Notes under the pieces: model-generated | Databases searched by the model: none | What the model was told of the DNA's origin: nothing | What the model saw: the letters and a program-made list of their open reading frames with translations, nothing else | Shown: positions 9,986 through 50,949 of the stretch, in pieces | How the letters are laid out: each line of letters opens with the position of its first letter | How positions within the stretch are numbered: the first letter of the stretch is position 1 | Source of the DNA: Actinoplanes subtropicus | Lineage (GTDB): Bacteria; Actinomycetota; Actinomycetes; Mycobacteriales; Micromonosporaceae | Direction: 5' to 3' | DNA: 64,000 nucleotides | Assembly (NCBI RefSeq): GCF_000721705.1 | Contig: NZ_JOJL01000012.1 | Location: 68,750 to 132,749 of the forward strand | Position numbers and translations under genes: made by a program

Positions 9986-10500
9986 CGTCGGTCTGGCTGC
10001 GGCAGGTCGCCTCGTCCCAGTCGCGGGTGAGCCGGCCGCGGGCGAGCGGGCTCCACGGGATGACGCCGGCGCCGAGGTCGGCGCCGAGCGGCAGCATCTC
10101 CCGTTCCTCCTCCCGCTTGAGCAGGTTGTAGTGGTTCTGCATCGACACGAACGGGCTGATGCCTGCCCTTTCCGCCAGGTAGTGCGCCTTGGAGAACTGC
10201 CAGGCCGCCATGGACGACGCGCCGACGTAGCGGGCTTTGCCGGAGCGCACCACGTCGTCGAGGGTGGCCAGCGTCTCCTCGATCGGGGTGTGCGGATCCC
10301 ACCGGTGTATCTGGTACAGGTCGATGTAGTCGTTGCCCAGCCGGGCGAGGCTGGCGTCGACCTGGCTGAGGATCGCTTTGCGGGACAGGCCGGCGCCGGT
10401 CGGGCCGGCCTGCATCCGGCCCTGGACCTTGGTGGCAGTGACCAGCTCGTCACGGCGGCCGACGTCCTTGATCAGCCCGCATTCGTGCGTAGCGCGACGC
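9986..10500 (-). pseudogene. Aldo-keto reductase fragment truncated at both ends
   Basis: Clear aldo-keto reductase sequence is seen in one minus frame: ELVTATKVQGRM, LARLGNDYIDLYQIHRWDP, VRSGKARYVGASSMAAWQ, and SPLARGRLTRDWDEATC. The first ~65 residues, which hold the catalytic Asp and Tyr, and the last ~100 residues are absent. Its end is joined at about 9986 to the epimerase fragment in a different frame. Upstream (10500-10680) a further coding-like stretch containing RLTWTQGIVLTKYGS is unrelated to this family. The stretch is debris from at least two recombination or deletion events. Confidence 0.7.
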
Positions 10501-35820: not shown

Positions 35821-37323
35821 TCAGAACGGCAGATGGAGCGCGGCCCAGGCGGCTTCCGTGTCGACACCGTCGACCGGTGGGGCGGTGACGGTCCGTGCTC
35901 CCGGCACACCCCCGATGACTACCGTCCGGTACGACACGTTGTTGTCCCGGGTGGTCTCCAGCAGCTTGTGCTCCGGGTCGGCGGTGATCTGGATCCGGTA
36001 GGTGCCGTTGGGCACGGAGCTGATGTCGAGCTCCTGGCCCGGCTTGACCTGGTCGTACTCGTCGCCCCAGCCCACGTCGAGGCTCTCCTGCACCGATCGG
36101 GACGGTAGGGAGCCGCAGTCGCCGAAGCCCACGAAGTCGGGGGTGGCGAAGCCGGGCAGGCTCGCGTCGATCTGGTGCACGTCGGCCATGCAGAAGCCGA
36201 TCTTGCCACTGCTCGCCACCGCCGCACCCTCGGCGTCGACGAGCCGGTAGTCAGCGAGGTGGTCGAAATGCCAGTGGAGATGCTCCGGGTCGTAGACGAG
36301 GGTGCCGGCCGAGCGCCGGGAAACCTCGGCTCCACCATGGAACAGCAGCTGATAGGCGGCCATCTGAGGGCTGGTCAGGTCGGAGCGGAAGCCCGCCAAC
36401 CGCAGCGGTCCGCGGCCGAGATTGGCCACAGTGGAGTTGAAGCGCAGGAAATCGCCGTTCTCCTGATGCCGGGCGGCGATGTTCTCGCTCGGCAGCGGCA
36501 CGAGATCGGGCAGGTCGGCCTGGCCGCCGGCCCCCGTCACGGCTGCCGACGCCCTCGCGCCGACCGGGCTCGGAGTCGCCGTGCCGGCGCGACCGGCGGC
36601 GACCTGCCCGGCCCGCAAGCCCGCGGTCAAGTCGAGGACCTCGACCGGCATCCGGATATGGTCGTCGGCGCGGGTCGACTCGCGGATCGCGCCGCCCGGA
36701 TTGACCGTCGCCTCCAGCACGTACGACCCGGGCGGCGTGGCGTCGGGCACCTGGATGTGCATTTGCACCCCCCAGCCGCTCGGGAAGCCCCAGCGCGCTC
36801 GAGTGGTCAGCGGGTCGCCGCACTCCTGCGGGTACGGGAAGACAGCCGGCGTGCGGGGGTTGGCCGGGTCGAGGTTGACCGGCCCGAGGAAGCCCCACGC
36901 GGTCAGGCTGAACACGGTGCCCGGCATCGGGCAGGCGTCAACCGCGGCAGAGGCTGCGACGCTGCCGTCGGCCCGGACCAGCTTCCACTCGAAATACCGA
37001 GGGAAACCCTGAACGACCGACTTCGGGTGCACCGGCAGGATCACGCCGTCCTGCCGCACCGACACGACCCCGCCGGAACGGCTCACATCGAGTTCCAGCG
37101 GACCGCCGGTGACCGCGAACACCGGGCTGGCCGACAGCGCCCGCTGGCCGTCACGCGGCGGGAAGTCCGCATCGGCGCCCATCAGCAACTGGAGGTTCGT
37201 GGCCGCCGGACGCGACGCCGGCCCAGCACCGGCCGCCGGCCGCGATGCCGGCCCGCCGGCACTCACCGCCACCACGCCCATGGCCGCCAGGACCGTGATC
37301 CATCGTCGCGGTGACCCGCCCAT
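35821..37323 (-). CDS. Secreted lysyl-oxidase-like copper protein
   Basis: A 500-residue exported protein. The N-terminus has a signal peptide (WITVLAAMGVVAVSAGG). The C-terminal ~200 residues match the lysyl oxidase fold: copper ligands in DPEHLHWHFDHLADY, the candidate cofactor Lys in SSGKIGFCMAD, and the partner Tyr in DNNVSYRTVVI. Lysyl oxidases oxidise amine side chains to aldehydes; bacterial members may modify peptides, polyamines or cell-surface proteins. ATG at 37323 follows GGGGGAGGCGGG. The N-terminal half (residues ~50-250) has no clear family but is beta-rich. Confidence 0.85.
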   Translation of the reverse strand: MGGSPRRWITVLAAMGVVAVSAGGPASRPAAGAGPASRPAATNLQLLMGADADFPPRDGQRALSASPVFAVTGGPLELDVSRSGGVVSVRQDGVILPVHPKSVVQGFPRYFEWKLVRADGSVAASAAVDACPMPGTVFSLTAWGFLGPVNLDPANPRTPAVFPYPQECGDPLTTRARWGFPSGWGVQMHIQVPDATPPGSYVLEATVNPGGAIRESTRADDHIRMPVEVLDLTAGLRAGQVAAGRAGTATPSPVGARASAAVTGAGGQADLPDLVPLPSENIAARHQENGDFLRFNSTVANLGRGPLRLAGFRSDLTSPQMAAYQLLFHGGAEVSRRSAGTLVYDPEHLHWHFDHLADYRLVDAEGAAVASSGKIGFCMADVHQIDASLPGFATPDFVGFGDCGSLPSRSVQESLDVGWGDEYDQVKPGQELDISSVPNGTYRIQITADPEHKLLETTRDNNVSYRTVVIGGVPGARTVTAPPVDGVDTEAAWAALHLPF

Positions 37324-37635
37324 GTATCCCGCCTCCCCCGAACAGCAGAGCAATCTGGCGCGTCCGAACCTAACCGGATCGAGCAGCCCGTCCTAACGGG
37401 TATCCGACAGACAACCGAACCCGGCGGTGCCCGGCAGCTCCTGAGTTGCTCACGATGGGCAGCCGCACGCCAGTTCTCCAGCAGGTCCCGCGCCCGCAGA
37501 GTGCCGTCGCTGAGTGCCCGGAGCGGGGGCTGCGCTTCTGCGGCGCCGGCCCCAGCGTGCGGAGCCGCAGTGGCTGCTGCTCCGATCGCGGCAGTCTCCG
37601 CGGAAACTTGGGATCGAGCGGGTGGCGGCTGGGTA

Positions 37636-39381
37636 ATGATGGGTGGCGTGGCCCCCGCATCCGCGCGCCGGGCGGCAGGTGACGTCGCCGCGGTACTGAG
37701 CTATCTGCTGCTGGCCGTCTGGATCATGCGGGCCCTGTGGGCCGCGCCCGCGGGGCAGGTGCTCCTGCACGGCGACGACCACGAGTTCTTCCTGGCCATG
37801 ATGGCGCACGGCGAGCGGGTGGTCTACCACGGCGAGACGCCGTTCTACTTCACCCGGCTCAACGTCCCGACCGGCGTGAACATGATGGCCAACACCTCGG
37901 TGCTGGCGATCAGCATCCCGCTCGCTCCGTTCACCCACGCCTTGGGGCCGGCCGTCGCCGTGGCGCTGATGGCCACCGGTGCCCTGGCCGGCACGGCGAC
38001 CGCCTGGTGGTGGGTGCTGCGGCGGCACCTGCTCGGCAGCGGGCCGGCCGCCTGGATCGGCGGGCTCTGGACCGGCTTCGCCCCCGGCTTCCTCGCCCAC
38101 GCCAACGGCCAGCCGAACCTGGCCTGCGGGTTCGTGGTCCCGTTCATCGTCTGGCAGGTGATCCGGCTGCGCGAGCCGGGGCGGCTGCTGCGTGGCGGGT
38201 CGGCCCTCGGCGTGCTGATCGCGCTGCAGGCCTTCGTCGGCGAGGAGTTCCTGCTGCTGCTGGCGATCACCATGGCGCTGGTCGGCGTCGCGTACGCGGC
38301 CACGCGCTGGCGGGAGGCGCTCGAGGCGGGCCCCCGGTTCGTGGCCGGCCTGGCGGTCGCGGCGCTGGTCGCCGGCCTTCTGCTGGCCTACCCGCTCTAC
38401 CAGCAGTTCCGCGGGCCGGGCCACTACACCGGGCTGCCCTTCCCGGTCGGCACGTCCCCCACCACGCTGCGCTCGGTCGCCGCGTTCCCGCGCAGCGCCA
38501 TCGCCGGCAGCGTCGCCCGGGCGAGGGAGGCGAACGGCGGCAGCGTCACCGAGGAGAGCGTCTTCTGGGGCCCCGGCGCCTGCCTCATGATCCTGGTGTC
38601 GATCGCGATCCTGTGGCGGTCGGCCGCCGCCCGCGCCGCCGCCCTGGCCGGCCTCGTCATGCTGGTCCTGTCGTTCGGCACCCAGTTCCGCCTCGACCGG
38701 ACCACAACCACCGGCCCCGGCTCGCCATTCGCCTTCGTCACCCGCGTCCCGCTGCTCGACTTGGTGACCACGCCCCGATACGCGCTGGCGAGCACCACGA
38801 TCGCCGGCGTGCTGATGGCGCTGGCAGCCGACCGGGTGCACAGTTACCGGTGGTTCGCCCGGCTGCCGTACTGGACCGGGATCGCGCTGGCGTTCGTGCC
38901 GCTGTTCCCGAAGCCGCTGCCGACCTCGCCGGCCCCGCCGATGCCGGCGTTCTTCGCCGACGGCACCTGGCGGTCGTACGTGCACGGCGACCAGACCGTA
39001 GTGATCGTGCCCCTGCCGAGCATGCGCACCGGCGGGACGGCCATGCGGATCGCGGCGCTGAACACCTTCGCGTTCCCGGTACCGCGCGGATACTTCATGG
39101 GCCCGCGGAACCCGCCCGCGGACGACCAGGGCTCGTGGTCGCCGCCGCCGCGCTTCACGGTCACCGTCCTCGACCAACTGCGCCGCACCGGGACGCTCCC
39201 GCCGGCCAGCGTCGACCTTCGCCGGACGATGCTGGCCGATCTGCGCTACTGGCACGCCGGCGTGGTCGTCCTGCTGCCGCACACGTCGCATCAGGCTGCC
39301 GTACGCCGAGTGCTGGCCTATGTCCTCGGCACCCCCGAGGATTACGGCGACGTAGCCGTGTGGCGGATGCCCCCGCCCTGA
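37636..39381 (+). CDS. Polytopic membrane protein, GT-C glycosyltransferase-like
   Basis: A 581-residue protein with about ten membrane helices and a soluble C-terminal part. The first extracytoplasmic loop has HGDDHEFFLAMMAHGERVV with paired acidic residues, as in GT-C glycosyltransferases that use lipid-linked sugars. Later segments include AAWIGGLWTGFAPGFLAHA and FVGEEFLLLLAITMALVGV. The best guess is a mannosyl/arabinosyl-transferase-like or related envelope enzyme. Two adjacent ATGs (37636, 37639) can start it. It is divergent from the lysyl-oxidase-like gene and 84 bp before the amidase. Confidence 0.65.
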   Translation: MMGGVAPASARRAAGDVAAVLSYLLLAVWIMRALWAAPAGQVLLHGDDHEFFLAMMAHGERVVYHGETPFYFTRLNVPTGVNMMANTSVLAISIPLAPFTHALGPAVAVALMATGALAGTATAWWWVLRRHLLGSGPAAWIGGLWTGFAPGFLAHANGQPNLACGFVVPFIVWQVIRLREPGRLLRGGSALGVLIALQAFVGEEFLLLLAITMALVGVAYAATRWREALEAGPRFVAGLAVAALVAGLLLAYPLYQQFRGPGHYTGLPFPVGTSPTTLRSVAAFPRSAIAGSVARAREANGGSVTEESVFWGPGACLMILVSIAILWRSAAARAAALAGLVMLVLSFGTQFRLDRTTTTGPGSPFAFVTRVPLLDLVTTPRYALASTTIAGVLMALAADRVHSYRWFARLPYWTGIALAFVPLFPKPLPTSPAPPMPAFFADGTWRSYVHGDQTVVIVPLPSMRTGGTAMRIAALNTFAFPVPRGYFMGPRNPPADDQGSWSPPPRFTVTVLDQLRRTGTLPPASVDLRRTMLADLRYWHAGVVVLLPHTSHQAAVRRVLAYVLGTPEDYGDVAVWRMPPP

Positions 39382-39465
39382 TCACGTGCAGGAGACAAAT
39401 GCCGGCCGTCGCCGCCCGGGCTCGCGCGGGCCGGCGAGTCGACGCGATGGGGCAGTCTGTGGGGC

Positions 39466-40938
39466 ATGACCGACTACGCGTACTCAACCGCGGCCGAACT
39501 GGCCACGGCGATGGAGAACGGCGAGGTATCGGCGGTCGAGCTCACCACGGCTGCGATCGCCCGGATCGAACGGCTCGACGGCGACATCAACGCGATCTGC
39601 GTGCCCGACTTCGACCGGGCCCTCGCGGCGGCGGGCGCGGCCGACGCGGCGCGAGCCCGGGGCCAGGCCGGGCCCGTGCTGGGCGTCCCGATGACCATCA
39701 AGGACTCGATCGACATCGCCGGGCTGCCCACGACCTGGGGATTTCCGCCGTTCAAGGACCATCTGGCGGCAGCCGACGCGGTGGTGGTCGCCCGGCTCGA
39801 GGCGGCCGGGGCGGTGCTCCTCGGCAAGACGAACGTGCCGCTCGCGCTCGGCGACTTCCAGTCTTACAACGCGATCTACGGCACCACCAACAACCCCTGG
39901 GACCTCGGGCGTACGCCCGGTGGCTCGTCCGGCGGCTCGGCCGCCGCCCTCGCCGCCGGCTTCGGCGCCCTGTCGATGGGTTCGGACATCGGCGGCTCGC
40001 TGCGCATGCCCGCGCATTTCTCCGGGGTGTACGCGCACAAGCCCTCGTTCGGCCTGTTCCCGTTGCGCGGGCACACGTTTCCGGGCACCCGGCCGCTACC
40101 CGTGCTCGGCGGCGACCTGGGTGTCGTCGGGCCGATGGCCCGCGGCGCGGCCGACCTCGCGATGCTGGTCCGCCTGCTTTCCGATCCCGACGAGGCCGGC
40201 CTCGGCCTCGCCTACCGGACCGCATTGCGGCCGGCCCGGCACGACGACCTGGGCACGTACCGGGTCCTGGTCCTTGATGCGCACCCGCTCGTCCCGGTCT
40301 CCTCCGAGGTACGCGCCGCGATCGACGACCTGGCCACGCGGCTGGAGGCAGCCGGGGTGACGGTCCGGCGGCACAGCCCGAATCTGCCCGATCTGGCCGA
40401 GGGCGCCCGCGTCTACATGCGCCTGCTCCAGTCGAGCATGGCGGCCAACTTCCCGCCCAAGGTCTACGCGTCGGCTCTCACGGCCGCGGCCGCCCTCGAC
40501 CCGTCCGACACGTCGCTGTCCGCCGAGCGCGCCCGGGGTATGGTCCTGAGCCACCGCGAGTGGGTCGCGGCCGACACCGTCCGCGCCGTCCAGCGGGCCC
40601 GGTGGGCCGAAGTGTTCACCGACGTCGACATCGTGATCGCGCCGGTGTCCTCGACCCCGGCCTTCCCGCACGACCACAGCGAGCCGATGTGGATGCGTAC
40701 GATCCCGATCGACGGCGAGAAGCACGACTACCTTGACCAGCTGGCGTGGGCCGGCATCGCGACGGCGCCCGGCCTTCCGTCGACCGCCGTGCCGGTCACC
40801 CGGTCGGCGCAGGGGCTGCCCATCGGCGTCCAGCTGATCGGCCCGCTCTTCGAGGACCACACACCGATCCGCTTCGCCGAGCTGCTCGACCGCGAGTTCG
40901 GCGGCTTCACCCCACCCCCGATCGGCGCGCCCGCTTAG
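39466..40938 (+). CDS. Amidase-signature enzyme
   Basis: A 490-residue hydrolase of the amidase signature family. The Ser-cisSer-Lys triad is visible: Lys in GVPMTIKDSIDIAG, cis-Ser in RTPGGSSGGSAAALAAGFGA, and the nucleophile Ser in MGSDIGGSLRMPA. The length equals the family norm. Substrates range from aliphatic and aromatic amides to carbamates; none can be assigned. ATG at 39466 follows a 84-bp gap from the membrane protein gene, and a strong hairpin ends the transcript. Confidence 0.93.
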   Translation: MTDYAYSTAAELATAMENGEVSAVELTTAAIARIERLDGDINAICVPDFDRALAAAGAADAARARGQAGPVLGVPMTIKDSIDIAGLPTTWGFPPFKDHLAAADAVVVARLEAAGAVLLGKTNVPLALGDFQSYNAIYGTTNNPWDLGRTPGGSSGGSAAALAAGFGALSMGSDIGGSLRMPAHFSGVYAHKPSFGLFPLRGHTFPGTRPLPVLGGDLGVVGPMARGAADLAMLVRLLSDPDEAGLGLAYRTALRPARHDDLGTYRVLVLDAHPLVPVSSEVRAAIDDLATRLEAAGVTVRRHSPNLPDLAEGARVYMRLLQSSMAANFPPKVYASALTAAAALDPSDTSLSAERARGMVLSHREWVAADTVRAVQRARWAEVFTDVDIVIAPVSSTPAFPHDHSEPMWMRTIPIDGEKHDYLDQLAWAGIATAPGLPSTAVPVTRSAQGLPIGVQLIGPLFEDHTPIRFAELLDREFGGFTPPPIGAPA

Positions 40939-40946
40939 AGCGAAGC

Positions 40947-40984
40947 GAACCGGCGGGGTGGTCGGTCGACCACTCCGCCGGTTC
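40947..40984 (+). terminator. Strong terminator hairpin after the amidase
   Basis: GAACCGGCGG (40947-40956) pairs with CCGCCGGTTC (40975-40984), and inside it GTGGTC pairs with GACCAC around a GGTC loop, with one G-T wobble. The 17-bp stem starts 8 bases after the stop. There is no T-run, as is common in high-GC actinobacteria. Confidence 0.8.
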
Positions 40985-41111
40985 TCGATCGGGCTCAGAA
41001 GGCCACCCGCCGTCCCGTCTTCGCCCCGATGACCTTGTTGGGACCTCGAAGTCGGTCGGCGCCGGAGCGTTGCCCGTACAGCTCAGCGTGCTGGCTTGCG
41101 CCGGGCGGTTA

Positions 41112-41141
41112 TGCCCGTATGACGGGCAGAGAGCGCTTTCT
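41112..41141. promoter_or_regulatory. Two abutting palindromes before the orphan operon
   Basis: TGCCCGT-ATG-ACGGGCA (41112-41128) is a perfect 7+7 palindrome; a further TGCCCGTA half-site lies at 41071-41078. It abuts AGAGAGCGCTTTCT (41128-41141), a 14-base palindrome with one mismatch that resembles LacI-family operators. Both are about 235-260 bp upstream of the acyltransferase start, so a long leader or a promoter in between is implied. Confidence 0.5.
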
Positions 41142-41374
41142 ATTTCTCCGGGTGCACTGATAGGTCACCGGACACGCCACCGTTTCCATATCCGGCGGTG
41201 GATCGAGGCTGAGTGCCCTCGGTAATCTGTCGGCCTGCCGACTGTATCGAGTCGATGCACCTGCCTTTCAGCGCCGTATCAGCCCCACTTCAGTCCTCGC
41301 TGCGATGGTTCTGACAACAGGCGGCGACCCGGTCGGAAACGGCCGCCCCGCAGCGGAAGGCAGGACATGAATCA

Positions 41375-43480
41375 ATGGATGGTTTACTGATGTGTGCGCC
41401 GGCGGGATCAGCCGGCCCGCACTCTCCGCCGAATCGATCGTCGGTTCATTCGTACAGAAGCGCAAATGAGTATCTGTCGGCCGGAGAGCGAGCACGTGGG
41501 CACAACTTTCTCCTCGAGCCCGGGCCGGGCCGGATCGCCGGATTCTTTCCCGGCCTCGGCAGCCGAACTGCCTACCGAAGTCTCGGCACCTCGCTGCTGG
41601 ACAGCAACGTCCCCGAGGTCGTCGCCGTCTACCGCGCGGGAGCACTGGCGTCGGGCTTCGCGGACCGGCCGGAGACACTCGCGATCACGCCGGAGAACCT
41701 GCCCGCCGGGAAGATGGCCCGGCAGGGATTCATCGGGGCCGCGATGACGGTGCACAACCTCGCGCTCGAGGCATACCTGCGCGCCGAGGCCAAGCGGCAT
41801 GGCGTGCCTCTCACCCCGGTCGCGTACACCGGGGAGAGCCTTGGCATGGTCGCGGCGGCCGTCGCCGCCGGCTCGTTGTCGGTGGTGGACGGCGTCAAGA
41901 TCGCGCGGGCTTTCACGCCGCTGTCTCTCACGGCCGCCGAAGGTCTCGTCTCCGGCGAGCCGATCGTTCAGGAGGCCATCGCCTACCTGCCCGACTCTGC
42001 CCGCGGGCAAAGCCTGGTGGACGAGCCCTTTCACGTCTTGGCTCTGCGGGGCAGTCCCGAAGACCTCAGCGACATCCTCGGCCGTATCGCGAAAAGCTAC
42101 TCGAAGTCGGACGTGGAAGTGCACAAGCTCTACTCGATCCGGCAGACGAACGTCTACGTCCGTGCCGCGGTCCGAGTCGGGTTCGATGAATTGATGTCCG
42201 GCGTCCCGGCGATCGAAATCCGGGAGCTGAAGCCCCCCACCACGTTTCTCGCCCATTCGGCGCGGATGGGTGTGGTCCGGAAGGCCCTTGCCCGGTTCAT
42301 CGCCGAGAACGGGATCGTCTTCGGCGAGCCGCGAGTCCCGGTGGTCGCGAACAACGCCGCCGGCGTGCTCACCACGGCCACCGAGATACGTGACGCCATC
42401 CTGGCCATGACCAACGAGATCATGGCGTCCCGGGCGACTGCGGAGACGCTGGACGCTCTGCGGCCCGACCTGATTGTCGAGCTGGGACCGGGTGGCAAGT
42501 CCGTTCAGCTGTTGCTCGACAACGACGTCGAGTCCCCGGTGATGGCGTACACGGGCGACCGGGTGGAAACGAATGCGATTCTTCGCCCGATAGAGCTGGT
42601 CAATACTCTGAAGGCGGAGCTGGCGCACCTGCACGCCGGCGGGCAGCTGACGTCCCGCCACCACGACCTGCTCCGCGACGTCTTCCGGGAGGCCGCCGCC
42701 AACCCTTTCGGTGTGCAGTACCTGCTCCGCACGATGACCGGCGTGATCGCGGGCGAGATGCTCCATCCGGAACGGCATGAGGTTCCCGGGTTCTCGCGAC
42801 TTCTCGAAATCTTCCAGCACACCTATGCCCACCGCGACCGGATCGACATCATCGGCGGCGAGCTGGTCGCCCAGGCCCGGCTCAAGAAGCAGATCGTGGG
42901 GCCACCCGACCGCCTGGGCCGGGCGTATACCGAGCTGATGGTGCTCGATGCCGACGGCGTCGCGTCGGGCCGGAGCCTGATCACGGCCGACACGGCCGAG
43001 GCCGTGGTCTTTCATTTCAGCCGGCCGTCCGACCTCGAGGCCGTCGACCTGGTTCGCGGCCTGCGGTCGGTGGGGGAGACGGAGCCGTCCGTCTGCCGGA
43101 TCTACAACGAGATCATGCGGCTCGATCCCGATCGGCCGGGCACGGCGGCCGAGCACTGGGAGATCGCCCATCTGGTGTACCAGCACACGCTGTTCCAGAT
43201 CTTCCGCCAGCATCGCCCGGCCCTGTTCGCGCAGAACGACTGCTATCTCGAAGGCAGCGACCCGATGGGGTGGCTCGTCGCTCTCGCCGCCTCCGGAGCG
43301 GCTCCCCTCACGAGCGTCGCGCGGTTGTACCGGGCGTACCTCGGCGCCGATGCCACCAGCGTGCTGAATCAAGCACTTTCCTCGCTCACGGATGCCGCCA
43401 TCCCGGTCATCTCGCCCGACGGCGTCCCCGTACAGCTCAAGAAGGATCTGGAGACCGCTACCCGTGTCATCTTCGGTTGA
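41375..43480 (+). CDS. Acyltransferase (FabD/PKS AT type) with long C-terminal extension
   Basis: A 701-residue protein. Residues ~48-400 form an acyl-carrier-protein acyltransferase domain: GFFPGLGSRTAYRSLG at the start, nucleophile elbow YTGESLGMVAAAVAAG (Ser155), catalytic His in FLAHSARMG (His294), and VELGPGGKSV near the end. The C-terminal 300 residues have no firm family; LVYQHTLFQIFRQHRPALFA then EGSDPMGWLVALAASGAAPL echoes the elbow of a second, degenerate AT domain. No ketosynthase or carrier protein is nearby, so it would act in trans. ATG at 41375 starts a ~45-residue unconserved leader; the gene has a more relaxed codon use than its neighbours. It overlaps the next gene by 17 bases. 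Confidence 0.75.
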   Translation: MDGLLMCAPAGSAGPHSPPNRSSVHSYRSANEYLSAGERARGHNFLLEPGPGRIAGFFPGLGSRTAYRSLGTSLLDSNVPEVVAVYRAGALASGFADRPETLAITPENLPAGKMARQGFIGAAMTVHNLALEAYLRAEAKRHGVPLTPVAYTGESLGMVAAAVAAGSLSVVDGVKIARAFTPLSLTAAEGLVSGEPIVQEAIAYLPDSARGQSLVDEPFHVLALRGSPEDLSDILGRIAKSYSKSDVEVHKLYSIRQTNVYVRAAVRVGFDELMSGVPAIEIRELKPPTTFLAHSARMGVVRKALARFIAENGIVFGEPRVPVVANNAAGVLTTATEIRDAILAMTNEIMASRATAETLDALRPDLIVELGPGGKSVQLLLDNDVESPVMAYTGDRVETNAILRPIELVNTLKAELAHLHAGGQLTSRHHDLLRDVFREAAANPFGVQYLLRTMTGVIAGEMLHPERHEVPGFSRLLEIFQHTYAHRDRIDIIGGELVAQARLKKQIVGPPDRLGRAYTELMVLDADGVASGRSLITADTAEAVVFHFSRPSDLEAVDLVRGLRSVGETEPSVCRIYNEIMRLDPDRPGTAAEHWEIAHLVYQHTLFQIFRQHRPALFAQNDCYLEGSDPMGWLVALAASGAAPLTSVARLYRAYLGADATSVLNQALSSLTDAAIPVISPDGVPVQLKKDLETATRVIFG

Positions 43481-45152
43481 TGTCGTTCTCGATTCCAACG
43501 CCCGCAGCATTCACCTCAACGGAGACTGTCAGATCTTCTCACTCGGCTCCGTTCTCGACCCGGCGCGGATCAATCTGGGAGACCATCGGCCGCGGGTCGT
43601 ATCCGTCCTGTCGCCGGCGGACATTCGGAGAAGGCGTCTCAACCCCGCGCTCGATGCCTTCGAGGAACGGTCGGTACTGCGGCTCACCGTCGAGAACGAA
43701 CGCGTCCATCGCCACGCCCGGGCCCGTCGCCTGCTGAGCACCACCGTCTTCGCCTACATCCACTGCGGGGAAACGGTGGTCGGCTTCGGCGAAGGCGGCA
43801 GCGAGTCCATGACGATCTTCGTCCGGAAGGACGGCGAGGCCGGGATCACGGTCCGCAAGATTCTCAGCGAGGCCCTGACAACGGCCCGCTGGGACCCGGA
43901 CGGCGTGGGCGTCATGCTGCCGCCGTTCGCGAAAGCACACCGGCAGGCCCAGTATCTCCACGCGTTGCCGCCGTCCGTCCGGGAGTTCTTCCCCGCCGTA
44001 CACGACGTCATCGAGCGGGACATTCCGATCCCACCGCGAGGGAGAACCACTGTCTGGGCGTCCCACCGCGAGGTCATCTACGAGATGAGCTACGTGCCGG
44101 GGGAGGAAGTCAGTCGCTACGTCGCGAGATGCTCGCCGCCGCCCGCGGTGATCGCGCGGCTGTACGAGCAGATCCACCGGCTGCTTCACGAGAAGGTGCA
44201 CAGCTTCGGCCGCACTCCCGCTCCGGGACCGACGGTCGATGTCTCGTACCTGCGGAAAATCGAGGATCGGCTCGGCCTCTGCCGGGCCACCGCACCGATG
44301 ACGTTCGGCCCGGACCTGCTGGACAGCGAACGCATCGTGATCAACGGCGTGTCCTACCTCAACTCGTCGACGCTGCTCGCGCGGTTTCGGTCCCGGCCGG
44401 ACTTCCTCCGCGTGCTGGAGCCGCGGTTTCACTCGCTCGTCATGGGCGACACGAATACCGAGAACATCAAGCTGACCGACACCACCCCGCTGGAAAACGC
44501 CCGCCGGCTCATCGAGGCGGGCGCTTCCCGCGACGCGATCGACCGGGCGCTCGCGGCCATCACGTACGAGTCGACGGGTATCACCTTCCTGGACCCGCGG
44601 GCGATCGGCTTCCAGGGCGAAGGCGGCGAGACCCGGGACGACCCGATGTACGACAACAAGCCGTGGCACAACTCGATCGGTCACTACGACGAGATCCACG
44701 CCGAACATTTCTCGATGCGGGTACGCGGCGGACCCACGCCCCAGGTGGACATCGAGTTCGTCCCCGGAAATCCGTACCAGGCTGCCTACCGGGTCCGGGA
44801 CGTCACGGTGCACGGGGAAGCCGTCGACGAGTCGGCACCGCGGGGCATGGAGGACTACTTCAAGCGCGTCATGACCGACGTGTACGACCTCGGCAACCCG
44901 GAATCGCCCTGTCTGCGTGACGATCCGTACTGGCTGATCCGTTTCGTCTTCATCATGGGCGCGCACTTCACCGCGATGCCGCCATTCCACTTCCACGCCG
45001 AAATGAATGGCACCCTGCGCGACACATACCACGCCCAACGCCGGCCCGTTGCGATCTACTGCGAAGGTGTCAAATGGCTGAACTGGGCCCTCGAAATGCT
45101 GGAGGGAACGAGGACGGAATTCCTGGGGATCCGTGTTCCGTCGTTGCCCTGA
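43464..45152 (+). CDS. APH/capsule-type phosphotransferase-like protein
   Basis: A 562-residue protein of uncertain substrate. The C-terminal half has kinase-like motifs of the aminoglycoside-phosphotransferase fold: SLVMGDTNTENIKLTD (Asp329, Asn334, catalytic-loop type) and TFLDPRAIGFQ (Asp377, metal-binding type), followed by DPMYDNKPWHNSIGHYDEIH. The same order occurs in phosphotransferases of capsule and sugar-phosphate loci. The N-terminal ~190 residues look like a separate beta-rich domain. GTG at 43464 lies inside the acyltransferase 3' end, so translation is coupled. A sugar or alcohol kinase role is inferred, not shown. Confidence 0.6.
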   Translation: MSSSVDVVLDSNARSIHLNGDCQIFSLGSVLDPARINLGDHRPRVVSVLSPADIRRRRLNPALDAFEERSVLRLTVENERVHRHARARRLLSTTVFAYIHCGETVVGFGEGGSESMTIFVRKDGEAGITVRKILSEALTTARWDPDGVGVMLPPFAKAHRQAQYLHALPPSVREFFPAVHDVIERDIPIPPRGRTTVWASHREVIYEMSYVPGEEVSRYVARCSPPPAVIARLYEQIHRLLHEKVHSFGRTPAPGPTVDVSYLRKIEDRLGLCRATAPMTFGPDLLDSERIVINGVSYLNSSTLLARFRSRPDFLRVLEPRFHSLVMGDTNTENIKLTDTTPLENARRLIEAGASRDAIDRALAAITYESTGITFLDPRAIGFQGEGGETRDDPMYDNKPWHNSIGHYDEIHAEHFSMRVRGGPTPQVDIEFVPGNPYQAAYRVRDVTVHGEAVDESAPRGMEDYFKRVMTDVYDLGNPESPCLRDDPYWLIRFVFIMGAHFTAMPPFHFHAEMNGTLRDTYHAQRRPVAIYCEGVKWLNWALEMLEGTRTEFLGIRVPSLP

Positions 45153-45183
45153 AGACCGAGTCGGGAAAGAGGAAGGCAAGTCC

Positions 45184-46662
45184 ATGAAGATTTCGCCGCT
45201 CACGCCGCGGGTGCACGGACTGAATGAGCTGTCGACCGAATCACGGATCATTTCGACGCCCTGGAGCCGGATGGTGCGGGGCATCGGACTCGGGCAATAC
45301 CCCATCGACTACGACCCGGCGATCGCCGGGCACCTCCGGGACACCTTCGATCAATTGATCGGCAAGGTGCCGCCGTCCGACTTCTACACGCTGTTCTGCC
45401 GGGCCCTGACCGACTTCGTCCTGAGGGTGACGGACCCTGCCATGGTGTTCGGCCCGGCGCAGATCGAGCAGGCGGTCGGTCCCCTGGTGGAAGCCGCCCG
45501 GGCCGAGAAGAACCCGTACTACCGGCTGCTGGCCGGCTGCCTCGTCATCGACGCCTGGGCCAAGCTCGACCTCGATGCCTCGCTGCTGGTCAACGCCGAA
45601 CTGGACTTCCCAGCGGAGATCTTGGACCTGGCCGCCGGCATCGCGCCGGACCAGATCAACGATGACAACCGAGGCCGGCACGGTGACTACGAACGCATCT
45701 CCGCCTACACCGCGGTCTTCCTGGCCCTCGGCCAGATCGGGCTGAAGGACCGGCTGGTCACCGACGAGCGAAACTACATCGTCGAGGCACTCGACCTGTT
45801 GCAGAACGTCCCGGCACCGTTCTACCGGGGCCGGGGTGGTTCGATGCTGCTCTCGGTGGTCGCGCTGCTCGGTTACGACAAGTACATCTTCGACGGCGAC
45901 CGCGACTACATGAAGGAGACCCTGGACTATCTTGCCCGGGCGGACGAACTTCAGATCTTTCCGTCCCTCCCGCAAGAGATCGCGGTTGCCTGGGCGAAGG
46001 TCTATCCGCTGCTGACCATGCTCAACGCCATAGCCACCGGCGGCCGGGCCGAGTATCTCCACGACCCGATCGACTGGTTGGCCGAGGCGAAGTCGCTGCT
46101 GGCCGACATTCCATCGGCGGAGCGCAGCCACATGAGTCAGTACTACATCGTCGCCCTCCACAACCTGGGCCGCCTGCGGGACGAGTTGCCCGACCTGGAT
46201 GCCTACGTGGCGGAGGTCGTGGCCGAACTGGACGTGGTGGACCCGGGGGCCGACTTCTTCACCAGCGGCATCGCCTATCCGTACATCATCGAGGCGGCGA
46301 TGCTCGCCGGTCGGCTCGACCTGATCCCGCAGGAGGCACTCGACCGCATGGTCGATTCCTTCGCGGACTTGGAGCGAACCGCCGTCGACCGGGCCAACCG
46401 GGCCTTTCCCGTCAGTTATGCGCTGAACATTTTGGGCGAGATCGGCGCCGCCGACATGGTCTTCACTCCTCGATCCCGGTACGGCGGCATCTCGGCGATG
46501 AACTGGGTGATCGATCGCATTTCCGACGGTGCGCAAGAAGAAGGCACCAAGCTTTACCTGCTCAACCATGCCCTGGTCAGCTACGCGCTGCGGCTGCGTG
46601 GCACCGGCGCCAGGGAAACGGAGCTGTTCCGGGACTTCGATTTCCGGTTGGCGCCCCAGTGA
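45184..46662 (+). CDS. All-alpha protein of unknown function in the orphan operon
   Basis: A 492-residue, almost wholly helical protein. ATG at 45184 is preceded by GAGGAAGG. I do not recognise the family. Visible features are a Trp/Tyr-rich N-terminus (STPWSRMVRGIGLGQYPIDY), an acidic stretch APDQINDDNRGRHGDYERIS, helical pairs around FLALGQIGLKDRLVTDERNY and GGSMLLSVVALLGYDKYIFD, and ISAMNWVIDRISDGAQEEGT near the end. The repeating helix pairs are compatible with an alpha/alpha toroid as in prenyltransferase-like or glycosidase folds, but no catalytic signature is present. It has no signal peptide. Confidence 0.6.
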   Translation: MKISPLTPRVHGLNELSTESRIISTPWSRMVRGIGLGQYPIDYDPAIAGHLRDTFDQLIGKVPPSDFYTLFCRALTDFVLRVTDPAMVFGPAQIEQAVGPLVEAARAEKNPYYRLLAGCLVIDAWAKLDLDASLLVNAELDFPAEILDLAAGIAPDQINDDNRGRHGDYERISAYTAVFLALGQIGLKDRLVTDERNYIVEALDLLQNVPAPFYRGRGGSMLLSVVALLGYDKYIFDGDRDYMKETLDYLARADELQIFPSLPQEIAVAWAKVYPLLTMLNAIATGGRAEYLHDPIDWLAEAKSLLADIPSAERSHMSQYYIVALHNLGRLRDELPDLDAYVAEVVAELDVVDPGADFFTSGIAYPYIIEAAMLAGRLDLIPQEALDRMVDSFADLERTAVDRANRAFPVSYALNILGEIGAADMVFTPRSRYGGISAMNWVIDRISDGAQEEGTKLYLLNHALVSYALRLRGTGARETELFRDFDFRLAPQ

Positions 46663-46694
46663 TTCACGAATCCCATTTCCCGAAAGGAATCTCA

Positions 46695-47804
46695 ATGACC
46701 GTGCCATCCGCCGGGCGATCGGAACCGCTGGGTGTGGGAATCGTCGGGTTGGGCAGCGAACGCGGGTGGGCGGCCGGCGCGCACCTTCCCGCTCTGCGGG
46801 CCGTGGAAGGTTTCGAAGTGCGGGGCCTGGTCGCCTCGACACCGGAAACGGCACGGCGATCGGCCGCGAAGCACGGCGTGCCGCTGATCTTCGACGACGT
46901 CTCGGCCCTCGCCGCCCACCCCGACATCGACCTGGTGGTCGTCGCGGTGAAGGTACCCCACCACCGGGAGCTGATCGTTCCGGCGCTGGAAGCGGGCACC
47001 ATGGTGCTGAGCGAGTGGCCGCTGGCCCGCACTCTGACCGAAGCGGAGGATCTGGCGGAATTGGCCGCGAAGCGCGAAACCCGTACGGCGGTGGGTCTTC
47101 AGTCGCGTTCCGCTCCAGCCATCCGCTACCTGCGCGACCTGATCGCCGAGGGGTACGTCGGTGAGGTGCTGTCGACCAGCATGATCGGTTCGGGCGACGC
47201 CTGGGGACCTACCACATCGGGGCGAAACGTCTACGCCCTCGATCGCGACAACGGCGCCACGATGCTGACGATTCCCCTGGGGCACGCCCTCGACGCGCTG
47301 GTCACCTGCCTGTCAGGGTTCGCGTCGCTGACCGCGACCACGGCCACGCGCCGCACCGGCGTAGTGGTCGGGGACACCGGCGAGACGGCACCGCAGACCG
47401 CTGAGGACCAGATCGCGATCACCGGCGTCCTGCAGACCGGCGCCGTCGCCTCGGTGCACTACCGCGGTGGCACCAGCCGAGCCACCAACCTCCTCTGGGA
47501 GATCAACGGCACCGACGGCGACCTGGTGGTCTCCGGCGACTCCGGACACGTCCAGTTCGGCCGCATCACCTTGCGCGGTGGGCGGGGCAACGACACCACC
47601 CTGTCCGAGCTTCCGGTGCCGCCCCGGTACACCGACGGACTTTCGGTGAGCGGGCCCGGCTCGGCGGTGGAACACGCGTACCGGCAGCTCCGGGCGGACA
47701 TTGACGCCAGTACGGTTACCGTGCCCGACTTCGCCGCCGCCGTCAGCCATCATCGCCTGCTGGACCGCGTCACTCGGGCGGCCTCCACGGGCACCCGCCA
47801 ATAG
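46695..47804 (+). CDS. Gfo/Idh/MocA-family oxidoreductase
   Basis: A 369-residue NAD(P)-dependent oxidoreductase. The N-terminal Rossmann domain opens GVGIVGLGSERGWAAGAHLP and contains IDLVVVAVKVPHHRELIVPA and LSEWPLARTLTEAEDLAELA (in place of the classic EKP motif it has EWP). The C-terminal domain has TIPLGHALDALVTCLSGF, where the His fits the catalytic position. EWPL and the overall layout resemble the Gal80/galactose-dehydrogenase-like branch. ATG at 46695 follows AAAGGA. It is the fourth gene of the orphan operon, suggesting that a sugar or cyclitol is oxidised. Confidence 0.85.
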   Translation: MTVPSAGRSEPLGVGIVGLGSERGWAAGAHLPALRAVEGFEVRGLVASTPETARRSAAKHGVPLIFDDVSALAAHPDIDLVVVAVKVPHHRELIVPALEAGTMVLSEWPLARTLTEAEDLAELAAKRETRTAVGLQSRSAPAIRYLRDLIAEGYVGEVLSTSMIGSGDAWGPTTSGRNVYALDRDNGATMLTIPLGHALDALVTCLSGFASLTATTATRRTGVVVGDTGETAPQTAEDQIAITGVLQTGAVASVHYRGGTSRATNLLWEINGTDGDLVVSGDSGHVQFGRITLRGGRGNDTTLSELPVPPRYTDGLSVSGPGSAVEHAYRQLRADIDASTVTVPDFAAAVSHHRLLDRVTRAASTGTRQ

Positions 47805-47987
47805 GCAGCCCCGCCATCGCGATCGGCGCGCGGGCGACGGGTTTCTTCAGGAAGGCCGGGAGGGCGGGCCCCGTTGCGGCTGGGCGCGCACTCGCCGACG
47901 ATCTCAGTGCGGAGTACTGGAGAGGTCCGTCCTTTCCGGACGACGCGCTCGTAGGGGCACCGATCCAATCAGGCGGAGGGATGTTTC

Positions 47988-48362
47988 GTGGCGGACGTGG
48001 TGATAGCGCGGCTCTACGCCGATGAGGCAGGCGAATCGCACTTCGGCACCTGGGAATGGCCCGCGACGGAGACCGCGTTCGCGCCACCGGCGCCACCCGT
48101 GGAGGTCGCCGAGCCGGTCCCGGCCGAACGAGTGCTCATGCTCCGGACGCCGGCCGGATGGCACGGCGACCTGCACCCGGCGCCGCGACGGCAGTTGATG
48201 GTGGTGGTCGCGGGCTCGATGGAGGCGACTGCCAGTGACGGCGAGACGCGCTTGTTCACCCCGGGCAGCGCGATCCTGCTCGAGGACACAACGGGCCGGG
48301 GCCACAGCTCACGTACGGTCGGCGGCGAGGTCCTGATCGCGGTGACCCAGCTCAGCGACTGA
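47988..48362 (+). CDS. Small cupin-fold protein
   Basis: A 124-residue protein with a single cupin barrel in its second half: DLHPAPRRQLMVVVAGSMEA and TPGSAILLEDTTGRGHSSRT, the latter with the C-terminal His of the metal motif. The N-terminal 45 residues are Pro/Ala-rich. GTG at 47988 is chosen for AGGCGGAGGG 7 bases upstream. It is 183 bp after the Gfo/Idh gene and may be a late member of the operon or separate. Isomerase or dioxygenase activity is possible in the fold; none is assigned. Confidence 0.7.
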   Translation: MADVVIARLYADEAGESHFGTWEWPATETAFAPPAPPVEVAEPVPAERVLMLRTPAGWHGDLHPAPRRQLMVVVAGSMEATASDGETRLFTPGSAILLEDTTGRGHSSRTVGGEVLIAVTQLSD

Positions 48363-48393
48363 GATCGGCTGTCGCCACGTTTCGGGGCGTACG

Positions 48394-49299
48394 TCAGCAG
48401 TAGCCGGGGCCGCCGTAGAAGAACGTTCGGTTGGAGGGGGCCATGTACATCGAGTAGTAGTCGGGGCTCGCGGTCGCCGGCTGGACCAGGGAGGTGAGGC
48501 TGGTCGCGGACGCGCCGTTGATCAGCGTGGCCGAGCCGAAGTAGGCGGCCGGCAGCGCGGCCTTGCTGCCCGGGGTGCCCGTACCCATGTCGGTGCACGG
48601 CTTTTCGGTCGCGGAGGCGACCTCGCCGAAGACCTGGACCTGGTCGGTGCTGGTGAAATCGGTGACTGCCGGGCTCGCGCCGGTCCACAGGGTGGCCGGG
48701 AACCAGCCGATCAGGGCGCCGTCGTAGTAGACGCCCCAGTTCGGGCCGTTGGCGTCGTCGGCGTTGTAGTGGATTTCGAACTTCTTCGCGGTGAGGGCTG
48801 GCAGGACGTCGCCCACCTTCACCGTGGCCGAGTCGGCGGCGACCCAGCCGCAGCCGTTGTAGCAGGTCGCCACGCCGTTGACCCAGTGGTAGACGAACAG
48901 GTGCGGCAGGCCGTCGCCCCACACGAAGTTGTCGACGGTCCAGCCGACCTCGATCATCTGCCGTAGGTCGTTGCTCTTCTTGATCACGGCGATCTCGCCC
49001 AGCGAGTGGGCGTCCTGCGCGTCGACCGTGGGCTGCGCGATGTAGACGTTCGCCCAGACGCCGGTGCCGACGACGTCCTGCAGGCCGTCGTTGTAGGAGT
49101 AGTAGTTGCCGCTCGCGGTCAGGGCGGCGGCCACCTTCGCGGTCGACTTCCCGGCGGTCGTCGGTGGGGCGCCCTTGGGGGCGTACGTCCCGGTGGTCGG
49201 GGTGCCATTGTCGGCCCGGGCCGGCGCGGGAAAGGCGAGCAGCGCGAGGATGACGCCGGAGGCGGCGACCAGCCGCCGAGGACCGCGGAAAGAGGACAC
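48394..49299 (-). CDS. Secreted neprosin-domain protein
   Basis: A 301-residue exported protein with a signal peptide (LVAASGVILALLAFPAPARA). The rest matches the neprosin/DUF239 domain first known as a plant prolyl endopeptidase: TGVWANVYIAQPTVDAQDAH, SLGEIAVIKKSNDLRQMIEV, GWTVDNFVWGDGLPHLFVYH and WVNGVATCYNGCGWV. Plant neprosin is a glutamic peptidase; whether the two catalytic Glu are kept here could not be settled by eye. GTG at 49299 starts the signal. It converges on the cupin gene. Confidence 0.8.
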   Translation of the reverse strand: MSSFRGPRRLVAASGVILALLAFPAPARADNGTPTTGTYAPKGAPPTTAGKSTAKVAAALTASGNYYSYNDGLQDVVGTGVWANVYIAQPTVDAQDAHSLGEIAVIKKSNDLRQMIEVGWTVDNFVWGDGLPHLFVYHWVNGVATCYNGCGWVAADSATVKVGDVLPALTAKKFEIHYNADDANGPNWGVYYDGALIGWFPATLWTGASPAVTDFTSTDQVQVFGEVASATEKPCTDMGTGTPGSKAALPAAYFGSATLINGASATSLTSLVQPATASPDYYSMYMAPSNRTFFYGGPGYC

Positions 49300-49340
49300 G
49301 CGCGGACCGTACTCGCCCGCATTGACCTGTGCAAATGGTG

Positions 49341-49373
49341 GTGGCGGCCCGCCGGGGGGAAGCGGGCCGCCAC
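49341..49373 (-). terminator. Terminator hairpin after the GH54 gene
   Basis: GTGGCGGCCCGC (49341-49352) pairs perfectly with GCGGGCCGCCAC (49362-49373) over a 9-base loop, 25 bases past the stop of the arabinofuranosidase gene on the minus strand and just before the neprosin gene start. Confidence 0.75.
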
Positions 49374-49398
49374 GCTCATCCGGAACGCGCCGGCCGGA

Positions 49399-50949
49399 TC
49401 AGGACCAGCCGGTGGTGACCACCCAGCTGACGTCGTCCGACCAGAGGTTGGCCGCGTCGAAGGTGTGTACGCCGCCGTTGCTCGCCACGTACGCGATGTT
49501 GTTGTAGTGCCGGATGTCCCGGGTCGGGTAGTTGTACGACTGGAAGGTGTTGCCCTGCCCGTTCTTGCCGGCCTGCGGGCAGAACGTGGCGTCCTGCGCG
49601 AACAGCGAGCTGCCGTCGTTGGCGTTCAGCCACAGCTGGAACCCGGAGTGCCGCAGGTAGCTGCCGGACGTGTCCTTCGACTCGAACGAGACGCAGGAGC
49701 TGTTCGCCAGCCCGGCCCGGACCACGAAGGTGGCCTGGCCCTTGAGCGTGGCGGTGCTGGACGAGCTGACCACCTGGGTGTTCACCGTGCTGCCGGAGTG
49801 CGCGATGTACCGGGTGGTGCAGCAGGCCGTGGTGGCCCGCAGCGAGACCGACGAGCCGACGGTGACCGCCGGGCCGCTGGTCAGCGAGGTGGTGGCGTAC
49901 GCGGCCGCGGTGATGTTGGCCTGGACCGCGTTCTCGGTGGCGTCGCTGGGGTAGCCGGAGGTCATCACGCCCTCGTAGAACGTGCCGGCCGAGCCGTTGC
50001 TGTTGTCCCCGCCGATGCCCAGGATGATCGCACCTTCCTTGTGCATCGGGTTGTAGCCGGAGGTCGTGGACCGGGCGCCGCTGTAGTAGGTGGACAGCGA
50101 GCCGGACTGGGCGTTGCCGCCGCGGATGGCCCACAGGTTCGCGGTGCCCTTGACGACGGCCGTGGTGAACCGGCTGGTGATGCTGGGGTCGGCGGAGTTG
50201 AGGCCGAGGTTCTGGCCGGAGAACAGGCCGTTCTCCAGATCAGCCATGATCCACGGGCCGTTGCCGGCGCCGTAGCCCCAGCCCTTGCTGGTGCCGAAGT
50301 AGATGGCCTCCATGTGGCCGTTGCCGGTGTCCGTGCTGCTGGTCTCGGCGTTGCCGTAGTCGAAGCAGCAGTCGCCGTTGTAGTGGCTGCCGTCGAGCAC
50401 GGCGTACTCGCCCTCGGCGGCGTCCCCGGTGGCGATCCCGTTGGTGGAGTTGTTGCGGTAGCCGGTGCCGGGGGAGACGAAGACGCCGTACGCCTTCTGC
50501 CCGCCCACGGTGACCGGCGCGGCCGCCGCCCCGGCGAGGTTGTCGTAGTTGTTGACGTCGGGGCCGTTGAAGCCGCCGGGCGGGGCCTGGGTCAGGTTGT
50601 TCCCGTGCCCCGACTGGTCGTAGATGATCGTGATGAGGCACGTGGTGCCGGCGCAGAAGGTGTCCTGCGCGGCCGCGTTGGCGACCCCGCCCGCGCTCAG
50701 CGGGGCGATGTTGAGGGTGGCGCTGTCCGAGGCGCGTTTCACCTGGTACAGCGAGCCGGTGTAGGCGGCGTAGAGGGCGCGGGTGGTGCTGTGCGCGGCC
50801 ACGCAGGGCGTGCCGCCGGAGGCGTAGATGTCACAGGGCTGGGCGGTGGCGGCCTGCGAGACGCCGGCGTTGACCAGGACGGTGGCGACGATGGTCGCCG
50901 AGGTGGCGGCGCCGAGGGCGAGGCCACGGACGAGCCGTGATGGTGCCAT
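49399..50949 (-). CDS. Secreted GH54 alpha-L-arabinofuranosidase with CBM42 (AbfB type)
   Basis: A 516-residue exported glycosidase. After a signal peptide (ALGAATSATIVATVLVNAG) the GH54 catalytic domain opens CDIYASGGTPCVAAHSTTRA. It carries the nucleophile Glu in GPWIMADLENGLFSGQ and the acid/base Asp in IGGDNSNGSAGTFYEG, in the positions known for fungal AbfB. The last ~135 residues form a CBM42 arabinose-binding trefoil (SCVSFESKDTSGSYLRHSGF, TFCPQAGKNGQGNTFQSYN). It removes arabinose side chains from arabinoxylan or arabinan. ATG at 50949 is chosen; a longer frame starts inside the operator region. A LacI-type operator lies 75 bp upstream. Confidence 0.93.
   Translation of the reverse strand: MAPSRLVRGLALGAATSATIVATVLVNAGVSQAATAQPCDIYASGGTPCVAAHSTTRALYAAYTGSLYQVKRASDSATLNIAPLSAGGVANAAAQDTFCAGTTCLITIIYDQSGHGNNLTQAPPGGFNGPDVNNYDNLAGAAAAPVTVGGQKAYGVFVSPGTGYRNNSTNGIATGDAAEGEYAVLDGSHYNGDCCFDYGNAETSSTDTGNGHMEAIYFGTSKGWGYGAGNGPWIMADLENGLFSGQNLGLNSADPSITSRFTTAVVKGTANLWAIRGGNAQSGSLSTYYSGARSTTSGYNPMHKEGAIILGIGGDNSNGSAGTFYEGVMTSGYPSDATENAVQANITAAAYATTSLTSGPAVTVGSSVSLRATTACCTTRYIAHSGSTVNTQVVSSSSTATLKGQATFVVRAGLANSSCVSFESKDTSGSYLRHSGFQLWLNANDGSSLFAQDATFCPQAGKNGQGNTFQSYNYPTRDIRHYNNIAYVASNGGVHTFDAANLWSDDVSWVVTTGWS

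Follow-up and report, generated by a model that had tools for sequence, protein, structure and literature searches.

Gene content of the locus

We analysed a 64,000-nucleotide stretch of Actinoplanes subtropicus DNA (positions 68,750 to 132,749 of contig NZ_JOJL01000012.1, hereafter the window; host genome size 11.26 Mb), which carries a run of five genes, A to E, on the plus strand (Table 1). The first three encode a FabD-type acyltransferase (AT) protein, an aminoglycoside phosphotransferase (APH)-like kinase and an all-helical protein. They form a block that recurs across bacterial phyla and that, judged from its sequences, may be a compact, horizontally moving, exporter-linked biosynthetic cassette, a reading to which we give a probability of about 0.45. 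The sequence-only reading of this DNA had described all five genes as an orphan operon. Its open reading frames (ORFs), coordinates, strands and spacings stand as given, with the A/B overlap followed by gaps of 31, 32 and 183 bases (B-C, C-D and D-E, respectively). The term orphan does not, since A-B-C is a widespread block.

Conservation of the A-B-C block

Protein searches at E ≤ 0.001 returned at least 78 relatives of A, at least 191 of B and at least 231 of C, and several of the B and C matches are probably on the same contigs. A profile of B, run against 84,980 species genomes, yielded 53 loci, distributed over Actinomycetota (30), Proteobacteria (13), Cyanobacteria (7) and Omnitrophota (3); L012 and L019 share one genome. 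B and two peptide patterns served to select the loci, so that they do not amount to a census. C is encoded on the same strand as B in 50 of the 53, and its match starts < 300 bases downstream of the B match in 47. The exceptions are one locus with C upstream (L023), two with C 1-3 kb away (L046, L053), one that runs to the contig end (L027) and two without C nearby (L040, L042).

An AT is present in 44 of the 53 loci, encoded in one ORF with the kinase in 36 and separately in 8. The homologue of Streptomyces sp. NBC_00249 is one example of an AB fusion. In the three Omnitrophota loci, AT, kinase and C occupy a single ORF, which has 3130 and 3224 residues in two of them and is truncated by the contig end in the third, and one further fusion joins C to the AT in a Thiotrichaceae locus. 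These fusions speak for joint action of the three products, and the recurrence of the same set across phyla places the block far beyond chance. Of the first four genes, A, B and C co-occur as a block, and D is not part of it. B is rare close to the host, occurring in 3 of 200 relatives and in 4 of 394 genomes of a class sample (its own genome included in both).

Table 1. Features of the five-gene run and its flanks; positions are those of the window
Feature	Position	Strand	Remark
Gene A (701 aa)	41375-43480	+	FabD-type AT domain ~50-404, then first part of predicted dead AT fold ~538-701
Catalytic Ser155 codon	41837-41839	+	GESLG (GHSxG in ordinary ATs); Ser in 21/21 rows with a residue (22 rows)
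Phe180 codon	41912-41914	+	Position of malonyl-binding Arg117 of FabD; F 20, Y 1, gap 1 (22 rows)
Catalytic His294 codon	42254-42256	+	22/22 rows
Degenerate second elbow GSDPMGW	43253-43273	+	Predicted dead AT, from A residue 627; relatives without conserved nucleophile
A/B overlap	43464-43480	+	17 bases, +1 frame; gene break inside predicted dead AT fold
Gene B (562 aa)	43464-45152	+	GTG start; predicted dead-AT end = residues 1-71, then APH-like kinase
Kinase Lys132 codon	43857-43859	+	VRK; 29/29 rows with a residue (30 rows)
Catalytic-loop Asp329 codon	44448-44450	+	GDTNTEN; 30/30 rows
Metal-binding-type Asp377 codon	44592-44594	+	FLDPR; 30/30 rows
Gene C (492 aa)	45184-46662	+	All-helical; no Pfam/NCBIfam family
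Gene D	46695-47804	+	Gfo/Idh/MocA oxidoreductase (Gal80p_C-like); local addition
Gene E	47988-48362	+	Small cupin-like protein; local
Lysyl_oxidase-domain protein (predicted)	35821-37353	-	Pfam 7.9e-10
Neprosin-domain protein	48394-49299	-	Pfam 1.7e-24; opposite strand, directly after cupin gene E

Acyltransferase, kinase and helical protein

Active-site residues were compared in rows hand-picked from the homologue matches (22 for A, 30 for B). A retains the Ser-His dyad in an AT frame, and both Ser155 and His294, named in the sequence-only reading, are conserved in relatives. In an alignment with FabD, Phe180 of A falls opposite Arg117; no Arg was found at this position, which is Phe or Tyr in 21 of the 21 rows with a residue. 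A also scores below the curated cut-offs of PF00698 (16.1 against 32.7 bits) and of TIGR00128 (fabD; 22.6 against 260.9). Malonyl transfer by A was rejected on Phe180 and these family scores, and the name malonyltransferase is unsupported, since A has Phe where malonyl transferases have Arg. According to an excerpt of PMC11775670, malonyl transfer in trans-AT systems needs the Arg, and its loss marks acyl hydrolases.

The region of the second degenerate elbow, noticed earlier from the sequence, falls within an AT fold in the predicted model of a homologue. On this model the region is a dead AT fold, cut through by the A/B gene break. A ~ 300-residue N-terminal domain with no Pfam family precedes the AT in P0250 (residues 1-335) and in L011, L012, L051 and L041. 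A of the window lacks this domain, and by eye only its last stretch is kept.

The catalytic motifs of B are of the APH type, Asn334 is kept in 30 of 30 rows, and the predicted model of a homologue (L013) has a kinase fold near APH(3')-Ia. On its sequence, B is an APH-like kinase, as had been proposed, and its catalytic residues do not vary among the rows compared. No Pfam family was matched by any of the 30 B members at E ≤ 0.01, and B has no NCBIfam match. The C-terminal region of B holds an invariant HFxAMPPFH-type motif that could not be named.

For C, structure prediction gave a confident all-helical model of uncertain fold, in keeping with the earlier description of a helical protein of unplaced family. 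Searches against Pfam and NCBIfam placed it in no family, and 34 members searched at E ≤ 1 gave scattered matches only (E ≥ 0.048). Residues conserved in C include W27, Y169, R217, Y367 and Y412. A second copy of C adjoins the cassette of Myceligenerans salitolerans on the opposite strand (L033:13777-15216, ~ 65% identical to C of the window).

The A/B junction

All six A/B junctions inspected (the window, L012, L051, L034, L036 and L037) read +1, and a programmed +1 frameshift joining A and B was considered for this reason; the ORF coordinates of L011 are likewise +1. Such a frameshift is not favoured by the sequences. The stop codons at the junctions differ (TGA, TAA and TAG), no shared slippery motif was seen in them, and the B gene of acetic acid bacteria comes with a GGAGG-ATG start of its own. 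In three loci of acetic acid bacteria (L034, L036 and L037; junction near 10335-10345), the kinase is split into two ORFs within the N-lobe; these overlap by 11 bases, and a GGAGG site lies ahead of the second start. The two parts may reassemble into one kinase, or a recoding event may have gone undetected.

Exporters, plasmids and other neighbours

A major facilitator superfamily (MFS) pump is encoded in 26 of the 53 loci. The same is true of all three plasmids that hold B, out of 72,556 plasmid records; these three also hold C. The pumps are 63-87% identical to the query, which is the pump of one plasmid. The Cmx/CmrA chloramphenicol-efflux model, whose cut-off is 400 bits, gives three of them scores of 331-339. 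The smallest setting is pRW1 of the insect-associated Acinetobacter larvae (L064; 12,170 bases), where MFS, AB and C occur in the order seen in Enterobacterales, with AB spanning the start of the record. This plasmid carries little else, namely replication genes and two toxin-antitoxin pairs.

The sequence-only reading had noted that no ketosynthase or carrier protein is adjacent and that no standard biosynthetic class fits, and Pfam bears this out, with neither found in the 15 ORFs around the cassette in the window. The nearest PF00109 match on the contig is partial and ~ 100 kb away. Searches of pRW1 gave 0 ketosynthase and 0 carrier-domain matches, and those of an 88-kb plasmid gave 1 and 0. 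A 410-kb plasmid has 14 ketosynthase and 31 carrier matches, and those among the matches listed are ~ 100 kb or more from the cassette. Neither function is annotated in the 21.7 kb around the cassette in two Streptomyces plasmids.

ArsR-type regulators occur in 17 of the 53 loci, ScbA-type gamma-butyrolactone genes in 10, and ScbR-like regulators in 11 (one match short). Nine loci have B with no AT detected within the fetched stretch. Their neighbours include an alcohol dehydrogenase (7/9), a polyketide_cyc2 protein (7/9), a [2Fe-2S] subunit (6/9), an amidohydrolase (6/9), a molybdenum hydroxylase subunit (5/9) and a YdcZ exporter (5/9). In L043-L048 and L052 (cyanobacteria and two proteobacteria), the AT-less kinase and C lie beside molybdenum hydroxylase, alcohol dehydrogenase, amidohydrolase and YdcZ exporter genes. 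The AT-less form may represent a second pathway built around this kinase/C core.

Genes D and E

The identification of D as a sugar-type Gfo/Idh oxidoreductase is confirmed by Pfam (9.4e-20), and its spacing suggests that D is probably on the same transcript as A-B-C. E does match cupins, as had been suggested, weakly and below curated cut-offs. Neither gene belongs to the set as had been claimed: at E ≤ 0.01 the 53 related loci gave one 27% match over 110 residues for D and no match for E. Relatives of D (42-51% identity) occur in 12 other of 100 relative genomes, where they do not adjoin B; just one of these genomes, G005, carries B as well, and there the two genes lie on different contigs. 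E has 2 other weak matches in the 100 genomes, and a link between E and the cassette is unlikely. The five-gene operon was rejected as a unit, given that D and E are without counterpart in related loci and that D relatives lie apart from B.

Base composition draws the same boundary. GC content is 0.670, 0.652 and 0.648 in A, B and C, lower than in D (0.702), E (0.715) and the flanks (0.736/0.696), which fits a foreign A-B-C block among local neighbours. The earlier guess of a sugar or cyclitol product drew solely on D, a local addition with host-like GC. A promoter and terminator scan, uninformative for this organism, gave 0 promoter-like sites and 3 terminator-like sites against 3.2 in shuffles, and no structured RNA reached the gathering threshold in 39000-50000.

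A biosynthetic cassette?

So, what might A-B-C do? We propose that a neutral (monocarboxylic) acyl group is loaded from acyl-coenzyme A or acyl carrier protein onto Ser155 in the AT of A and passed on to a small acceptor, with the dead AT serving as a docking or spacing domain between AT and kinase. Kinase B would phosphorylate the acceptor. The phosphate could be a last modification of the product, or it could prime a hydroxyl or carboxyl group to undergo elimination or cyclisation. The helical C would hold the substrate and may act as a third catalyst. Export of the product would fall, in most relatives, to a Cmx-type MFS pump, and in this genome D may add an oxidation. An acylated and phosphorylated product is possible. 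We hold more tentatively the specific proposal that the AT-pseudo-AT-kinase and its helical partner are an undescribed natural-product core, making a small phosphorylated or phosphate-activated acyl metabolite without a ketosynthase, carrier or precursor in cis. It would have spread between phyla, small plasmids included, as a three-gene exporter-enzyme-partner cassette.

Several observations count against a biosynthetic cassette. A-B-C has no known substrate, product or activity. The nine AT-less loci, eight of them with C, imply that the AT is dispensable in some cases or acts from another location. No catalytic motif is recognisable in C, and it could serve as a scaffold. Next to A-B-C the window lacks an MFS pump of this kind, its closest MFS relatives being on other contigs, and in pRW1 as deposited the AB and MFS frames are interrupted. 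No ScbA-type gene occurs in 43 of the 53 loci.

Biosynthesis with an exporter is nevertheless the most likely of the readings, and two others are serious rivals. In detoxification or self-protection, the kinase and AT would modify a toxic small molecule and the Cmx-like pump remove it. The kinase fold near APH(3')-Ia, the match of the pump to the Cmx/CmrA family (at scores under the cut-off), the ArsR-type regulators, plasmid carriage with toxin-antitoxin pairs, and the oxidase, dehydrogenase and amidohydrolase genes adjoining the AT-less form all point that way. The ScbA/ScbR-type genes near part of the loci, however, favour biosynthesis, and PADLOC had no match for the five proteins scanned. 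We know of no resistance enzyme in which a FabD-type AT and a dead AT are fused to a kinase, and on balance consider detoxification unlikely. A role as a defence system was rejected, as phage records gave no match either and none of 63 pattern matches in viral contigs was confirmed. A could instead be an acyl-thioester hydrolase, with the cassette editing or releasing acyl groups. In the excerpt of PMC11775670, an Arg missing from the place of FabD Arg117 is described as diagnostic for the acyl hydrolases of trans-AT polyketide synthases (PKSs), and the residue before their nucleophile likewise departs from His; A has Phe for Arg, and GES for GHS. The same excerpt gives Gln or His, not Phe, as usual at that place, and pRW1 offers no ketosynthase or carrier domain to edit. 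We infer acyl transfer over hydrolysis, and rate hydrolysis as improbable as detoxification.

Two further readings are less likely still. A kinase and a ring-like C might modify a ribosomal precursor in the manner of lanthipeptide enzymes, which we think highly improbable; the 12 largest recurrent small-ORF groups included no convincing precursor, though a fast-evolving one could escape such a search. That the block forms a regulatory or signalling complex and makes no metabolite is also very unlikely, as the catalytic residues of both enzymes are conserved and the block is linked to exporters.

Significance

Fused relatives are labelled 'ACP S-malonyltransferase' in public records. If the biosynthetic reading is true, a widespread enzyme assembly is annotated under this name and as 'hypothetical protein'. 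With this mislabelling and no ketosynthase, carrier or precursor, cluster-finding programs that rely on them would likely miss the cassette. In the search for a new product class it would offer three genes as a target, or two in genomes with an A-B fusion. It would also provide a kinase family that Pfam does not model, and a case of one enzyme that is whole in some lineages and cut at differing places in others, such as the kinase N-lobe in acetic acid bacteria.

Comparison with known systems

No described system in the family libraries and open-access literature searched matched the A-B-C architecture. We regard it as categorically new, a label that covers the architecture, the chemistry being predicted. 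LanL/LanKC lanthipeptide synthetases combine a kinase with a helical partner and a lyase. The cassette shares the kinase and a helical, perhaps ring-shaped partner, has an AT and a dead AT in place of the lyase, and its C model matches LanCL weakly. B has the kinase fold, Lys, catalytic-loop Asp/Asn and second Asp of APH(3')-Ia and Hanks-type kinases, and differs in its lack of a Pfam match and in its C-terminal region with the HFxAMPPFH-type motif. Acyl hydrolases of trans-AT PKSs (PksD type) resemble A, as far as the excerpted account goes, in that their AT fold lacks the malonyl-binding Arg and a residue other than His precedes the nucleophile. A differs in having Phe rather than Gln/His and a fused kinase, with no PKS in cis on pRW1. 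Compared to FabD and PKS AT domains (PF00698, TIGR00128), A shares the AT fold, Ser-His dyad and flanking motifs, and departs from them in its Phe for Arg117, its GES for GHS and its family scores far under the cut-offs. Unlike these enzymes, the cassette AT is joined to a dead AT and a kinase.
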